Origin: Galdieria partita
Taxonomy: Eukaryota > Rhodophyta > Bangiophyceae > Galdieriales > Galdieriaceae
DNA length: 64,000 nt
Reading direction: 5' to 3'
NCBI GenBank assembly: GCA_025991245.1
Contig: BQMJ01000011.1
Location: 186,001-250,000 of the forward strand
Shown: one piece after another, positions 16,319-33,189 of the stretch
Position numbering within the stretch: position 1 is the first letter of the stretch
Layout: every line of letters begins with the position of its first letter
Made by a program: the position numbers and the translations under genes
Notes under the pieces: generated by a model
Seen by the model: the letters and a program-made list of their open reading frames with translations, nothing else
Told to the model about the DNA's origin: nothing
The model's database searches: none

Positions 16319-17173
16319 ATGGACGACGGAAATGACTCGTGTAAAACATCCAATGGACTCACCCAAAGAGTCGTTATGTTCAATTCTTCTTCAGAAATTG
16401 AGACGCCCCTTCACAACCATAACGCAACTTCTCACGTAACCTTGCCGTCGGCGGTTTCTCTGAGAGGTGTTAACCTGAGGACTCAATCAGGAAGTGAAAT
16501 TCTTACAAATATTGACTGGGACGTATTTCAAGGTTCAACAGCGGTAGTTATTGGCCCATCAGGTTCGGGAAAGACCAGACTTGTTCGCCTTTTGAATCGG
16601 TTGGACGAGGCATCTTCAGGTCACATTGACATCTTTGGACTTGACATAAAGCAGTGGAATCCCCAGCAACTACGTAGAAAAGTTGTATACGTTGCTCAAA
16701 CACCGTACTTGTCGCGAAACACAGTGCTTGAAAATTTGGAGATAATCTGCAAGTTAGGTGTTATTTCCAAGTCCACTTTTGAAAGAAGTCTTGACGAGGC
16801 GTTGGAAATTGCGGGATTTCAAAAGGCACTTCTTGATCACTCAGTGAATACGTTATCGGGGGGAGAAAAGCAACGTTTATCAATTGCTCGAGCACTGTTA
16901 TTGTCACCCGAAATTCTTGTCTTGGACGAACCTACTTCTAGCTTAGACGGTTTAGGGGCACAAAGCTTTCTTCAAAGGCTAAACCACTGGAGACAGAAAA
17001 GTAATAGCACATTGATTGTTATTTCCCACCGTTTTGCAGACTTGTCGGTCCTTGGTGGCCAGCTTCTTATGTTGAATAGTGGGAAAGCTGTTTTGAAAGG
17101 AGAAACTTCTGGTATATTGAATTCAGCTGAGGGAGAACAGGTTCGGAAGTTATTGTCTGGTGAAGATTTATAG
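16319..17173 (+). CDS. ABC transporter ATPase, FetA/STAR1-like
   Basis: 284 residues from the ATG at 16319; intronless. All ABC motifs are present: Walker A GPSGSGKTRLVRLL, Q loop VAQTPYLSRN, signature LSGGEKQRLSIARALL, Walker B ILVLDEPTSSLDG and the switch His in VISHRFADL. The domain starts at about residue 50 after an acidic, Asn/Ser-rich leader. It is directly followed by a UPF0014-type permease, the partner seen in E. coli FetAB (YbbL-YbbM, metal stress) and rice STAR1-STAR2 (aluminium tolerance), so the pair probably exports a metal-related substrate. Two consecutive stop codons (TAG TGA) end the frame, and the partner begins 21 nt later. Confidence 0.9.
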   Translation: MDDGNDSCKTSNGLTQRVVMFNSSSEIETPLHNHNATSHVTLPSAVSLRGVNLRTQSGSEILTNIDWDVFQGSTAVVIGPSGSGKTRLVRLLNRLDEASSGHIDIFGLDIKQWNPQQLRRKVVYVAQTPYLSRNTVLENLEIICKLGVISKSTFERSLDEALEIAGFQKALLDHSVNTLSGGEKQRLSIARALLLSPEILVLDEPTSSLDGLGAQSFLQRLNHWRQKSNSTLIVISHRFADLSVLGGQLLMLNSGKAVLKGETSGILNSAEGEQVRKLLSGEDL

Positions 17174-17194
17174 TGAGTTGTAGCAATATCTCTT

Positions 17195-18004
17195 ATGTCT
17201 TCTTGTCCGGATACAGGCGCAATTCCTTTGGATCCAGAGCAGCTTATTTTTGCAGGTGGTTTTCTCATTGCCAATATTATAGCCATTCACCTTTTGGAGC
17301 TTGGTCTCGAACGAGATATTACTATGGGTGGATTTCGAGCAACTGTTCAGTTATTAATGGTGGGATATTTTCTCAGATGGGTGTTTTTAACACGTCAAGT
17401 AGCTGTTGTTATGTTGGCGTTCGGTATTATGTTGTCAGTAGCAGTTTGGACTGCAACAAGAAGAGTGAAGCGGAAACTACCAGGCTTACTATACAAAAGT
17501 GCAGTTTCAATCGTAATAGGCTCCGGACTGACTACCGTTATAGTGACGGCGTTTGTAATAGGTACTGATCCCTGGTGGGATCCTCGATATTTTCTTCCTC
17601 TTGCCGGAATGATCGTTGGAAATGCGATGAATGCTGCTGCTTTAGTTTCAGAAAGAATGGTTAGCGAAATTATTTCTCGCCAAGGAGAAATTGAGGCCCT
17701 TCTAAGTCTTGCAGCAACACCTAGACAAGCAGTTGCTCCAGCATTACGTGCAGCTCTTCGTTCTTCAATGATTCCTTCTATTAACGGAATGATGACTGTG
17801 GGACTCGTTTCATTGCCTGGAATGATGACTGGACAAATGTTAGGTGGGGCGGATCCTTCAGTTGCGGCAAGATATCAACTAATGATTGTGTTTGTTTTGG
17901 CTGGAGCAACCAGTGCAGTGGCAGTTTCATTGTCCATGTTATTGTATCATTCTTTTTTCACTTCAGCTTGGCAGTTGAGGACAGAGTTGCTAGCGTCTGA
18001 ATAA
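17195..18004 (+). CDS. UPF0014/FetB (STAR2, ALS3)-type membrane permease
   Basis: 269 residues, intronless, with about seven hydrophobic segments. It contains the family hallmarks: FRATVQLLMVGYFLRWVF, PLAGMIVGNAMNAAALVSER, EALLSLAATPRQAV and INGMMTVGLVSLPGMMTGQM. The length equals bacterial FetB and there is no obvious targeting leader, although the first segment could act as a signal anchor. It lies 21 nt behind and in the same frame as the ABC ATPase, the gene order of bacterial fetA-fetB. The pair would form a two-component half-type ABC exporter at the plasma membrane, vacuole or plastid envelope; the location is open. Confidence 0.92.
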   Translation: MSSCPDTGAIPLDPEQLIFAGGFLIANIIAIHLLELGLERDITMGGFRATVQLLMVGYFLRWVFLTRQVAVVMLAFGIMLSVAVWTATRRVKRKLPGLLYKSAVSIVIGSGLTTVIVTAFVIGTDPWWDPRYFLPLAGMIVGNAMNAAALVSERMVSEIISRQGEIEALLSLAATPRQAVAPALRAALRSSMIPSINGMMTVGLVSLPGMMTGQMLGGADPSVAARYQLMIVFVLAGATSAVAVSLSMLLYHSFFTSAWQLRTELLASE

Positions 18005-18815: not shown

Positions 18816-20500
18816 ATGCACTGTTCCCCTCTCATCAAACGAGCAGCTGGAGACAAGTACCACCCCGAAAGCTTTAAGCAAAGATGGGAAATACTGAAAA
18901 AGTTAGGAGAGTATGGATGTCGTTCCTGTTTTTAGGACATTTGCTCACTTTCTTTTAAAATGCAGAGGAGGTTTTTCCAAAGTTACCATAGGAAAGCGGA
19001 AAAGCGAAGAGGATTCCGTATATTCCGGGTTTGGACCTTCCAATGCTTCGCGTGACGAAGTTGCTTCCGAAGTTGCTATTAAATGTATTTCAAAGGAAGA
19101 CATGAGAAATGGTTCGGAGAGTGAAGAATTGGTCGCTCGAGAGATACAGACGTTTGTGACCGTATGTATGTTCGTCTACTGATAGCATATTGTTGAAAAG
19201 AGAAACTTCAAGGTTGGAAATGGTTATCCTTATGTTGCACAACTGTATGAAGTATGTGAAGACGAAAAGTTTGTTTATTTGATAATGGTAAGTTGCAATG
19301 CCCTTGTTTTGACCGTAACCGTGAAACCTTTCATAGGAACTGTAAGTGTGAGTTTCTGTTAAATCAAGACTTATATTTTTGAAGACTTTCTGGAGGAGAG
19401 CTGTTTGACCAAATTGTACAACGAGGTCACTTTTCCGAGAGAGATGCTAGTGCTATCGCTTCGTGTATGATTTCTTCAGTTGCACATTGTCATTCGAAAC
19501 ATGTTGTTCACCGAGATCTCAAACGTGAGTGGAAGTTTCAGCGAATTCATTTTCTAACATATACTATAGCTGAAAATTTTGTTTTTGAAAGTCGTGCTCA
19601 TGATGCAAAACTGAAGTTGATTGATTTTGGTTTGGCAGCCATAATGGCAAGTCCTGCATCAACATTTAGAACAATTTGTGAGTTTCTTCTGGTTTTCTTT
19701 GAATAATTTTTTATATCAGGTATTAGGTGGTTCTCCGTCCTATGTTGCCCCAGAAATACTCTATCAGAAGCCTTATACATATAAAGTGGATGTTTGGAGT
19801 TTGGGAGTTATTATTTATATCTTATTGGCAGGATATGCACCTTTTGAAGCGAAAGATGAAAAAGAGCTTTTTCGCAGAATAAAGCACGATCCTGTTAGAA
19901 TGGAAGGAAAGGAGTGGGATGCTGTATCTTCTGATGCAAAGCATTTTGTAGCTTCTTTGTTGGAGAAGGATCCTCGAAAGAGACCTTCATGTGAAGAATG
20001 CCTTGAACATCCTTGGATCGAGAAGGGGCAACATATCCTCGAAGAACAGTACCATTTAGAACATACAGTGAAGAACTTAAAACAGTTCAATGCAAGACGT
20101 AATTGGCATGTAGGAATTATTTGAAAACTGAGACTCTTTTGTTTGTATATACTAAGACGACTTTTATTAGGCAGCTGTCGCCGGTGTGACTGCAATGAAT
20201 CGTATGGCTCGCTTAGCTCATCTTCATCATCACGTATTACGTGCTGTTAGTGAGACTGACCAAAGTGAAGCTTCTCCATTAGAAGATAAGACCAATAACG
20301 AAGATGAGAAGGGTAGAGACAAATCAACTAGTCCACAAGATGGTAAGGTCGAGGATCCAGTTAAGGAAGGTTTAGAAACCTCGAAGGAGACATTAACCTC
20401 ATCCTTAAAGACAAAGAATGAACCTGCAGACAACAAAAACTCCAATGCCAAACATATGCCAAGTGAAAAGGAACCTTTTTGTTCTTGTGCTATTTCTTAA
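18816..20500 (+). CDS. CAMK-type Ser/Thr protein kinase with CaaX box (paralog 1)
   Basis: Eight or more exons. It starts MHCSPLIKRAAGDKYHPE, then QRWEILKKLGEGGFSKV (glycine loop restored by splicing), VAIKCISKED (ATP Lys), VYLIM-EL-LSGGELFDQI, VVHRDLKPENFVF (catalytic loop, spliced inside PEN), KLIDFGLAAIM, GGSPSYVAPEILYQ, DVWSLGVIIYILLAGYAPFE and RPSCEECLEHPWI. The kinase is therefore complete and of calcium/calmodulin-kinase type. After the domain lies a region resembling an autoregulatory helix (TVKNLKQFNARRNWH, then AAVAGVTAMNRMARLAHLHH) and an acidic tail ending CSCAIS, a CaaX box for prenylation. No EF hands. A paralog lies inverted at 26462-28161. The GAACT exon at 19337-19341 is only 5 nt. 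Confidence 0.9.
19337..19341 (+). other. 5-nt microexon of kinase paralog 1
   Basis: GAACT, preceded by a 49-nt intron ending TTTCATAG and followed by a 43-nt intron beginning GTAAGT and ending TTGAAG at 19384. Joined, it supplies GAA CT(A), the Glu-Leu of the conserved M-E-L-x-x-G-G-E hinge. Skipping it would break the frame. Confidence 0.85.
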
Positions 20501-20593: not shown

Positions 20594-22179
20594 TTAGTTG
20601 GAATTTTTAAGTTTCCATGAAAGAAACTCTTCTCTTAGTTCATTGGTGACTCGCTCTTCTTCCTTCAAGTCAGTCAACGACTTTTTCCAATTAATCTTTT
20701 GGGGCATGCCCATAGCTAACGCTGCAATCTTTCTTCCAAATGAAAACAAAGCAAAATAAGATGATTGCACTCCTACAGATTTGCGTTTTCTTTTACTTTC
20801 TTTTTCAACAACATGTAAGGCATAACAACCGTCCGGCAACTTGAACAAAATGTACTCGTCCATCTTTTCGCGATGATACTTCTCTTTAAGCTCGTCTTGT
20901 GAACACAACTCCCATATAGTAATTCCTAGTTTCTTAGATTCTCTATCTAAAAGATTTGATACAAAAGAGAGATTCTCTCTGCTAGGAATTCCAATAACTT
21001 GTATTTGCATATGATTTACTTCGTTTCCTGATGGTGGCTTCATACTTCTTTCAAACCAAAATATTTGTAAATTCATTGAACGCCACCAATTTTCCAACAA
21101 TTCTAAATAAAATTGCATTTCTTTCCAAGTCTCGCTCGATAACTCAAACCTCGAACCCACATGTTCAATAGGAACAATGAGAATATGATGCTTGGACAAG
21201 TATCCCTTTGCAAGAGCCAAAAAACAATACTGACCAATATCAACAATCAAGTGCAGATCCTTTTCATTGGCTAAACAAAACCAACAAGAAACTTGATGAG
21301 GCTTGTTTGCATCGTCAACTACACTATGCTTCTCCATAAGGCTAACTTTTGTCTCTTCTTCTGCAAGTTTGTCAAATGTAAAAGGATTGGATAATGTAGA
21401 GTGTTCAGACTTTTCTTTTATCAGATCGGTTTCATTCAAATAAGCTAACGGTTTCATGGATAAAGCATATAGCCACTTTTGCTTTGAACCAACACAACTT
21501 AGGTGAATGAAACGGGAAGGAGTAAGACTATCCTCAAATAAGAAAGGTCCATATTCAAAATATTCGAAAGGCTGAACAATTTGTGAATAACAAAACAGAA
21601 CATTGAAACAACGGAAAAATACCTCGACTGAACAGAATGAGTAACGCGGCCTAAGCTTGGCTAAGCCTTTCGACAAGTCGGAATGTTGCCCTTGGAGACG
21701 CAGCAGTTGTCTGTCCAAAGGAATATCAAGAACTGCGATATCCAGCTGAATCTTTGACTGCGTACAACAATCTACAAGACTGTTGAATGCATCTAAATCT
21801 TGCGAAAGGCCAAATGGAATGAATGATAGTCGGAAGCCACAAACTTCAAAAATTTCAAAAGGCCTTATTCTATAAACATTTTTCTGAATAGATTCCTTCA
21901 ATGGTGCAACGTCCCTACTCTGTTGAGAAGCCAAATAAACCCCTAACGACAACTCTTCCTTCACTCCTGCCTCTGCCAAACAAACACTTTGCTTTTGGTC
22001 GTAACCACAGCAAACAACAAAGGAAAAAGGTCCCTGCTTTTCCTGTACTTTTAACACTCGTGATATAAATAAATCCACTTCACTTGCTTTCAACAAAAGG
22101 GTAAGCGAAAATAACTTTACCACTGCTTTGACTAACCATTCCTTATAGCTCCACAGACTAGAAACTTTATCGAATCCAT
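20594..22179 (-). CDS. CWF19L1: CWF19L1/Drn1-like splicing-associated protein
   Basis: Two exons: MDSIKFLVCGAIRN from the ATG at 22179, a 50-nt intron at 22087-22136, then ASEVDLFISRVLKVQ onward to about 510 residues. The N-terminal part matches the metallophosphoesterase-like domain of CWF19L1 (FLVCG, then SRVLKVQEKQGPFSFVVCCG). The C-terminal half holds the two CwfJ domains: CWFCLANEKDLHLIVDIGQY, AKGYLSKHHILIVPIEHV with the HIT-like His residues, and the closing block INWKKSLTDLKEEERVTNEL. In yeast and animals the family interacts with the lariat debranching enzyme; here a role in intron-lariat turnover fits an intron-rich genome. The usual CCCH zinc finger between the halves is not seen. 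Confidence 0.9.
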
Positions 22180-22937
22180 ATAAAGATACTGTCTGAAAAC
22201 CTTATAGTTTGCGTGATATGACAGCAAATAAGCTAACAGAACATCATAAAACAAAAGCTGTTTCACCCAACCAACAAGTCAATTTGGCATTGACTGTTCG
22301 TTTTGTCAAAGTCTGTGATTGTTGCTTGTAGACAGTACTTTGGTTCTTCTGAAAATTTCATACATATCAAACTGTAAAATGCTCTTCATTTACTTTCTTA
22401 TTAGTGTCTTTCGGAAAAATAAGTGAGTAGTTCTATTGAACTACGGTCGTTTGCGAGGTTTGTGATATTCAATCACAATATCTATAAATACATATTCAGT
22501 TGCTCACAAGCCCCCAATATTGTGCCTTCAAGAGGTCTAGACTATTCTTGTGGAAGGTCCACCAAAAAGTTTATGAACACGAGACAACTTTGAAGAGAAG
22601 TGGCTACGATAAAGGAATTGTCTAAGAAAATAGAGCAGTTTAAGTATTGTTGCATGTCTTTCTCCTTGGCATATCACGATTTTTGACTCTTTCTTCCATG
22701 TTTAATATTTCATAGCAAGTACCATAAAGGTACCGGTGGCACACAAAGACGGATTCCAAGTGAACTTTATTGAAAATCTGAAAGTCAAAACGAATCATAA
22801 ACACAAAGCGTACGTAATTACATGAAATACGAACGCAAAGTTGCTTAATTGTTGTTCCCAAGTGGACTGTAAGTTCCAAGAAATAGTTATAAAAAACCAC
22901 TTGAAAGGCGTAGTTTATAACTATCTTGTTGATAACT
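22180..22937. other. intergenic region, no gene seen
   Basis: 758 nt between the CWF19L1 start and the CtpA stop, both on the minus strand. A 124-codon frame on the minus strand at 22640-23014 overlaps the end of CtpA and is low complexity; I treat it as chance. Confidence 0.45.
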
Positions 22938-26461: not shown

Positions 26462-28161
26462 CTATTGTAACAGACAAAGCCCACATGATACTTGAGTGTC
26501 CCGATACACTGGTTTCTTAGAATCTTTCTCCTTTGAAGAAGGCTTCCCTCCTATAAAATGATCAAATCTGGGTGCTCCCTCCACTTGTTTCGACTCGTTG
26601 ACAGGCTTTCCTCCCGCTTCTGCTTCGTTAGGATCTCTTCCTGTTGTGTGGTCTTCTGGAGTCTCCTCAAATAAAGTCATAGATCTCTCCTCCACCTCTG
26701 AAACATCAAACTTCGTACCATGAGACTCGCTTGGTTCCATCGTGGCTGAAAGAATCCTTTCGTGCAACTCTGCCAAGTGAGCCAATCTATTGGCTTCTCT
26801 AATTTTTGAAATTGCCACCTAATTTTGATGTTCGTAAAACGAAAAATGTGCATAATACATCTGCTTCTTACTTCCCACTTCTCTCTTGCATCGAAATTCT
26901 GGAGATTCCTTAAAGTTTTCTTTAGGCTAGTTGATAAAATTGTGGTCTCATAGTATTTTTGACCCTTTAATATCCAAGGATGTCGTAAACACCAATAAAT
27001 GTCCGGTCGCATTTGCGGAGTTTTTGATAACATCTTCAACACCAAATCCTTTGCTTCATCAGATACGTCTGTCCAGGAATCACCTCTCAACTCAACTTGA
27101 TCGTATTTAATCTTATGAAATAACACCTTCTCATCTCGATGTTCAAATGGTGCATGGCCACTTAAAAGAATATGAATTATGACACCTAAACTCCAGACAT
27201 CCACTTTTGAGGTATATGGCTGTTGAAACAAAATCTCGGGAGCAATATACGAGGGCGAACCACCTGACATGTAAGAAACTTAGCATTCAAATTGTACCAA
27301 AAGACTCATTCTTACATAAAGTATAAAATACAGAACTTTCTGAAGTCATGATATTGGCTAAACCAAAATCAACCAATTTCAGCTTGCAACTTTCTTGTTC
27401 ATTCTCAAAGACAAAATTTTCGGCTAATAGGAGACAATAGTGACTTCATTTCATGAAAGAATCTAAAAAACTTACGTTTCAAGTCTCGATGAACAACATG
27501 AACCGAGTGACAGTGAGCAATAGAAGCAATCATGCTATAAGCCAATCTACTAGCGTAAGCTTCGTCAAAGAAATTAATATCGATAATTCTTTGAAACAAT
27601 TCACCTCCTCGCAGTCTTCATACGGAATTTAAAAAGTAAAAGAACTTTAGTCAACTCATACTTACAATTCCTACACTAGTTAGCAAAACAGGTCAACAAA
27701 ACGAAAACATGAACGAACCATAACTATATAAACTTTATCTTTCTCTTCAATCACTTCATATAATTCTACAACAAAATTACTTCCATTTCCAGCCTATTTC
27801 CTTCCATAAAGGCATCGTGCTGTCAACTGCAATTACATACCAAACGTAATGCTTTCACTTCTCTAGCCAGTAAAACTTCGCTATCGTATCCCTCATATAT
27901 AGCTTTCTTATCCACAGTTTTTACTGCCGCAAATTCAGTATCACTACTCTCTGATGTATTCGAAGAGAGAAGATTCTTTTTCATGGCAATGCTAACTTTA
28001 GAAAAGGTACCCCTTCAAAAAGATATCCTTAGCAAATCAAGAACTTTAAAAACAATTACCTACCTTCCTAAAGGTTCCAAAATCTCCCATCTTTCGTTAA
28101 AGTCACCTTGAATATACTTGTCAGCTGCTGCCTGTCTCAGCAATTTTGTCAAGTTTCTCAT
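26462..28161 (-). CDS. CAMK-type Ser/Thr protein kinase with CaaX box (paralog 2)
   Basis: Same exon plan as the kinase at 18816. It starts MRNLTKLLRQAAADKYIQG at 28161, then RWEILEPLGRGTFSKV (spliced in the glycine loop), FAAVKTVDKKAIY (ATP Lys), VYIVM-EL-LRGGELFQRI, VVHRDLK-PENFVFE, KLVDFGLANIM, GGSPSYIAPEILFQQPY, DVWSLGVIIHILLSGHAPFE and RPDIYWCLRHPWI. After the kinase domain come TLRNLQNFDAREKWE, a break by intron, then AISKIREANRLAHLAELHE, an acidic tail and a final CLLQ, a CaaX box predicted for farnesylation. No EF hands. Its 5-nt exon is at 27666-27670. The SQD2 gene begins 121 nt away in the opposite direction. Confidence 0.9.
27666..27670 (-). other. 5-nt microexon of kinase paralog 2
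   Basis: On the minus strand GAATT, preceded by an intron ending CTAGTGTAG and followed by one starting GTAAGTATG and ending TATGAAG. Joined to the flanks it reads VYIVM-EL-LRGGELF. It has the same length, phase and position as the microexon of the other kinase. Confidence 0.83.
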
Positions 28162-32049: not shown

Positions 32050-33189
32050 CTAAGAAATCACACAACAGCCGCCTTCGGCCGCTTTCTGTTTAGACTTTCC
32101 AGTTTTTTCGTCAGGCCTATAGTGCTGAGGTTTCGGAGGAGGAGGAGGAATACGTTGCGTATCAGAAGCCGTCTTCAACTCCGTTGTTTCCTTTTTCTCG
32201 ATATCAACTTTTTGATTATTCTCTTCCCTTTCTTTCAATTCTGGTATAAAATCATGTTTCTGCGAGTTTGAAACAGTAGGGGAGTTCTTCTTCTCAGGTT
32301 GTAACTTGTCCTCAACCAATGAGGAATCCGACTGGCTCTCAGCAGGGCTATAGATACTGACTTCTGTTTGTTGGTTTGCAACATTTTCACTCTCTGTGTG
32401 CTTTTCGTGAATATTCGTGGAATGATTCCGATGTTCAGAGAATGAGGTTTGCTGACTGCTACTTTGTGTTTTTGAAGTTTGCAAAGCTATATCATTGTTT
32501 TCTTCTACTGAATATGAATCTTCACCAACACCATTAGCTTCAACGTATCCATTCTCTCCATTCGTCAACAATGATAGTTTATCAGTATCTTCAACTGCAC
32601 TTTCATTAGAATCTATAAAACCATCAGACATGGCCGTCTTTGCATGATCATACTTTTCTTCATCTGGAATATTTGTTTTCTGTTCAGATTCTTCCTCTTC
32701 TACGACTTCTCCATCCTTCTGTATGTCTGGTGTATCTTGAACGATATATGACTTGTGATCATAAGCATTATCAATCCATGAAAAATGCTTTTTACATAAG
32801 AACAATATGCAGTCGTGTTGTTCACTTTGGAATGCGAAAGTCTTACTGGAGGAACATCTTTCTGGAGGTTCCTTTCCGCTTGCTGCTGTTATAAGTGCTT
32901 GGCATTGTTGTTCTTCCATATTTTCATAGTCTCCATAGCCTAATAGCTTTCCGTTCTTAGGCAACGGTTTCATGGGTTGAGTATCCATTCCAAGCGCGCT
33001 CAAGTCACATAAAGCTTTCAGATGTGTACCACAAGTAATATAGCCTTGTTTTTCACCTGGCAAACAAAACATGTACTTTCCTTTGGTCCGACATTTGCTG
33101 GGCTTTTGCTTTACAGTATATCTGGCTTGACAATACTCGGTAGGAGGGTTTGTAAGATAAATGTTTACGATAGGTTCTTCTACTGCCAT
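32050..33189 (-). CDS. unrecognised Cys/His-repeat protein with CaaX box
   Basis: 379 residues from the ATG at 33189; intronless. The N-terminal 150 residues hold two related units. Unit 1 (about residues 18-65) has YCQARYT, then KCRTKGKYMFC and ITCGTHLKALC. Unit 2 (about 95-145) has QCQALIT, ERCSSSKTFAF and LFLCKKHFSWI. Each shows Cys-x-Ala/Gln, a second Cys 12-14 residues on, and a closing Cys-x2-His, which suggests two zinc sites. The rest is a Ser/Glu/Asn-rich disordered stretch, a Pro run (RIPPPPPKP) and a C-terminal AAEGGCCVIS, a CaaX box with an extra Cys that could be palmitoylated. I do not recognise the family. A membrane-anchored zinc-binding adaptor is the best guess. Confidence 0.75.
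   Translation of the reverse strand: MAVEEPIVNIYLTNPPTEYCQARYTVKQKPSKCRTKGKYMFCLPGEKQGYITCGTHLKALCDLSALGMDTQPMKPLPKNGKLLGYGDYENMEEQQCQALITAASGKEPPERCSSSKTFAFQSEQHDCILFLCKKHFSWIDNAYDHKSYIVQDTPDIQKDGEVVEEEESEQKTNIPDEEKYDHAKTAMSDGFIDSNESAVEDTDKLSLLTNGENGYVEANGVGEDSYSVEENNDIALQTSKTQSSSQQTSFSEHRNHSTNIHEKHTESENVANQQTEVSIYSPAESQSDSSLVEDKLQPEKKNSPTVSNSQKHDFIPELKEREENNQKVDIEKKETTELKTASDTQRIPPPPPKPQHYRPDEKTGKSKQKAAEGGCCVIS

Follow-up and report, generated by a model that had tools for sequence, protein, structure and literature searches.

Can an exon of only five nucleotides be a genuine coding exon, and what would allow the spliceosome to use it? The question is raised by two paralogous protein kinase genes, lying on opposite strands of a 64,000-nt stretch of a Galdieria partita contig (hereafter, the window), in which a 5-nt segment appears to be interposed between two small introns at the start of the ATP-binding hinge. 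Here we report a comparative analysis of these genes, which leads us to conclude, with a probability of about 0.92, that each contains a true 5-nt spliceosomal coding exon derived from a common ancestor and most likely included by intron definition. Such an exon would probably escape standard annotation, which would then list the kinases as defective or cut short at the ATP-binding hinge. A clear ultra-small exon amid introns of about 50 nt also offers a natural setting for asking whether intron definition by itself lifts any lower limit on exon size.

The gene models were built by homology, with the splicing of each paralog derived by comparison with the other and with the solved CaM kinases CaMK1 and CaMK1D. 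With the 5 nt included, both spliced reading frames are uninterrupted and encode products of 443 aa (gene 1) and 448 aa (gene 2). Both genes consist of eight exons, and the seven introns all occupy matching aligned positions with identical phases (2,0,0,2,1,1,0). Both products match the protein kinase domain PF00069 (E-values of 6.5e-71 and 6.4e-63), the GxGxFSKV, HRDLKPEN, DFG and APE motifs are intact in each, and the best PDB matches of both are CaMK1 and CaMK1D (1a06, 2jc6). By sequence, both are thus CaMK1-like kinases of the CAMK group, having a protein kinase domain with its catalytic motifs; on the Ca2+/calmodulin side, only a CaMK-like C-terminal helix region aligns. The GC content of the window (39%), its introns of about 50 nt and its gene set are those of the nuclear genome of a compact eukaryote. 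These features fit Galdieria, which has been reported to carry 13,245 introns, about two for each gene, and to have a GC content unusually low for a red alga (PMC5880011). The coordinates of the two genes, their exons and the introns next to the 5-nt exon are given in Table 1.

Table 1. Features of the two kinase genes, in positions of the window (exons in order of transcription)
Feature	Position	Strand	Remarks
Kinase gene 1, coding span	18816..20500	+	CaMK1-like, 443 aa; homology to paralog and CaMK1
Gene 1 exons 1-4	18816-18910, 18966-19161, 19213-19287, 19337-19341	+	
Gene 1 exons 5-8	19385-19524, 19570-19677, 19727-20109, 20171-20500	+	
Gene 1 intron 3	19288..19336	+	49 nt, phase 0, gtaagt...catag
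Gene 1 microexon (exon 4)	19337..19341	+	GAACT; Glu codon and first two bases of Leu codon, hinge
Gene 1 intron 4	19342..19384	+	43 nt, phase 2, gtaagt...tgaag
Kinase gene 2, coding span	26462..28161	-	inverted paralog, 448 aa
Gene 2 exons 1-4	28161-28064, 28012-27841, 27793-27719, 27670-27666	-	
Gene 2 exons 5-8	27615-27476, 27423-27316, 27263-26872, 26818-26462	-	
Gene 2 intron 3	27671..27718	-	48 nt, phase 0, weak donor gttcgt, acceptor gtgtag
Gene 2 microexon (exon 4)	27666..27670	-	GAATT; position, phase and encoded residues as in gene 1; also found by gene finder without homology
Gene 2 intron 4	27616..27665	-	50 nt, phase 2, gtaagt...tgaag

An earlier note on this DNA had proposed the 5-nt exon in both paralogs, and its coordinates and layout are borne out by the sequence, which reads tttcatag-GAACT-gtaagtgt in gene 1 and agtgtag-GAATT-gtaagtat in gene 2. 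In both genes the segment is a predicted internal coding exon between GT-AG introns, within the size range of coding microexons (15 nt or less). The note had put the flanking introns at 43-70 nt, a range that is too wide; all four fall between 43 and 50 nt, which is typical for this genome, the median intron in the window being near 52 nt. The donor of intron 3 outscores 88% of the other introns of the window in gene 1, and that of gene 2 is stronger than only 3% of the window introns. The proposal that the 5 nt restore the reading frame also holds, as their skipping leads to a stop within eight codons in both genes, and retention of either intron 3 or intron 4 likewise leads to an early stop. 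A recursive, zero-length splice site at this position was considered and rejected, since the 5 nt are needed for the reading frame and dropping all of them shifts it in both genes.

The microexon contributes a Glu codon and two-thirds of a Leu codon that is completed by exon 5, giving the hinge sequence M-E-L-L-x-G-G-E-L-F in both proteins. In standard kinase numbering, the Met is not a hinge residue, as previously described, but the gatekeeper in front of the hinge. The hinge, which contacts adenine, begins with E-L, and it is these two residues that the microexon encodes. The hinge aligns without a gap to CaMK1 (1a06; LIMQLVSGGELF) and CaMK1D (2jc6; LVMQLVSGGELF), and the layout is the same. 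The completion of the motif by the 5 nt is correct for both genes, but its attribution to every CAMK kinase is not, since CaMK1 has M-Q-L-V where these two kinases have M-E-L-L.

Over 429 aligned residues the two paralogs share 46% identity, with a dN of 0.54 and a saturated dS of about 3.0; 27 of 73 fourfold sites are identical, and most pairs of corresponding introns, with the exception of intron 6, are no more similar than shuffled sequences. An identical gene structure that persists despite synonymous saturation argues that it was inherited from before an old duplication. Judged from these two paralogs, the 5-nt exon predates that duplication, and its position, size and phase are conserved between copies that are saturated at synonymous sites. 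Searches of genome-contig and viral-contig collections, with a single protein and with an alignment of both paralogs, returned no orthologs and only two distant bacterial kinase matches. The description of the microexon as old and functional is well supported at the sequence level: it belongs to the best gene structure in both copies, restores the frame and has survived to synonymous saturation, and we regard it as old and very probably functional.

In a rival reading, the 5-nt exon is an artefact and exons 3 and 5 are joined in frame by one larger intron with other splice sites. We enumerated joins of these exons through either a single intron or two. When introns had to be GT-AG and no shorter than 30 nt, 34 in-frame, stop-free joins were found in gene 1 and 51 in gene 2; with wider limits that included GC donors, 157 and 71. 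Every join was aligned to CaMK1 and to CaMK1D and given the lower of the two scores; by this measure the microexon path ranked first of 157 in gene 1 and first of 71 in gene 2, the runners-up requiring weak splice sites and altering hinge residues. Single-intron joins that keep the frame do exist (14 in gene 1 and 7 in gene 2), but each of them either deletes core hinge or strand residues or adds residues. None scores as well as the microexon path against CaMK1 and CaMK1D, and unrelated solutions would be demanded in the two genes. Chance was assessed with 5000 dinucleotide shuffles of the stretches between exons 3 and 5 (97 nt in gene 1, 103 nt in gene 2). An in-frame 5-nt exon encoding E-L arose in 0.08% of the shuffles for gene 1 and in 0 of 5000 for gene 2, corresponding to chance probabilities of 0.0008 and <0.0002, and a 5-nt exon followed by a GTRAGT donor arose in 0.2% and 0.34%, respectively. 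A simple gene finder that used no homology, and whose splice models were trained without the four flanking introns, recovered the microexon of gene 2 under four of the five intron penalties, while placing the donor of exon 3 15 nt upstream. In gene 1 it recovered the exon at the mildest penalty only and at most penalties favoured a single-intron join, which is structurally implausible. When gene finding was extended to the whole window, with a retraining step that may have drawn on the flanking introns, no internal exon of 30 nt or less was predicted apart from the microexon of gene 2. A single larger intron appears very improbable as an explanation.

The microexon could instead be real and serve as a switch, in which skipping or retention of a neighbouring intron yields a prematurely stopped message and less kinase, through splicing coupled to decay. 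In both genes, all mis-spliced forms that we tested do run into a stop within the site or soon after it, and intron retention is the main mode of alternative splicing in Galdieria sulphuraria, partly dependent on temperature (PMC5880011). However, any frame-shifting intron would have the same effect, no evidence of regulation was found, and conserved plant microexons mostly occur in major isoforms (PMC8831610); we consider such a role unlikely. Somewhat less likely still is a broader version, in which the kinase family would have retained the 5-nt exon, an ancestral feature, as a fail-safe or regulated switch, and any splicing slip at the hinge would silence the kinase, perhaps as a response to temperature or stress. 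That the genes are non-functional, through sequencing error or as pseudogenes, and the frame accidental, found no support at all; the structure is common to two independent copies, both retain the catalytic motifs intact and dN is much lower than dS, which leaves this explanation hardly any probability.

For the preferred reading, a true microexon that is probably constitutive, inclusion in the RNA would most likely come about by intron definition, with the two small flanking introns recognised as units and excised one after the other. A mere 5 nt separate the acceptor of intron 3 from the donor of intron 4, and the two sites would hardly be occupied together, so that sequential removal is expected; after loss of the first intron, the 5 nt would form part of an exon of normal size. 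Recognition across the intron would be natural for introns of about 50 nt and would leave the exon between them without a strict minimum size. In gene 2, the weak donor of intron 3 suggests that intron 4 is removed before intron 3. Comparable behaviour has been described in Caenorhabditis elegans, where microexons flanked by introns of 49-58 nt are independent of PRP-40, which fits intron definition, and where a swap to a short intron releases another microexon from the need for PRP-40 (PMC8378409). For the 1-nt exon of Arabidopsis APC11, intron definition has been put forward, with the introns removed in steps (PMC4674806), and two-step removal of introns around the 9-nt exon of a potato invertase is cited in that same paper.

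The earlier note placed five nucleotides near the lower limit for spliceosomes, which overstates the case, since constitutive exons of 1 nt in APC11 (PMC4674806), 4 nt in human MPC1 (PMC9929638) and 6 nt in cTNT (PMC4674806, PMC9929638) have been published. In plants, conserved coding microexons of 1-15 nt form 45 clusters, one of which, Cluster 7, is a 5-nt exon conserved in the Peptidase M1 genes of land plants; in Chlamydomonas, microexons occur in kinase domains more often than in any other motif (PMC8831610). The exons of these clusters are likewise tiny, frame-essential, conserved and often missed by annotation. The exon described here does not belong to Cluster 7, however, as it lies in the domain of a CaMK1-like kinase between introns of 43-50 nt and starts in phase 0, whereas Cluster 7 is a Peptidase M1 exon of phase 1. 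APC11 resembles it as an ultra-small exon for which stepwise intron definition was proposed, but that exon is 1 nt long and experimentally tested. The MPC1 exon shares a size that is no multiple of three and is essential for the frame, but has long flanking introns, with exon definition by proximal intron sequences reported. The PRP-40-independent microexons of C. elegans also lie between introns of about 50-58 nt and favour intron definition, but are animal exons of up to 27 nt. A limited search of the literature on microexons in Galdieria and other red algae found no report of a 5-nt kinase exon. The kind of exon is thus already known, while the gene is new and the red algal lineage probably is as well.

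The introns next to the microexon have otherwise diverged between the paralogs, yet 12 of the first 13 positions of intron 4 match (gtaagt[g/a]tgagtt; 19342-19354 on the plus strand and 27653-27665 on the minus strand). This shared start is a possible splicing element or a product of chance; TGAGT at +7 to +14 is also present in a third intron among 36, and we do not claim a conserved enhancer just 3' of the microexon.

Both kinases end in CaaX-like tails that adjoin another Cys, ...FCSCAIS* (20471-20500, plus strand) and ...SCGLCLLQ* (26462-26490, minus strand). The retention of these ends in tails that have otherwise diverged suggests CaMK1-like kinases that are membrane-anchored through putative prenylation. 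A CaaX-like end (...GGCCVIS*) was also seen in a 379-aa protein without a Pfam match at 32050-33189 on the minus strand. Upstream of gene 1, at 16319-18004 on the plus strand, an ABC ATPase reading frame (PF00005) has its stop codon just short of the open frame of a UPF0014 permease (PF03649), with only a few bases between them. An intron of 57 nt predicted at 17160-17216 would fuse the two into one protein; they may be either tandem genes or a fusion. Between the two kinase genes, at 20594-22201 on the minus strand, lies a gene with a CwfJ C-terminal domain (PF04677), from the splicing-associated CwfJ/Cwf19 family.
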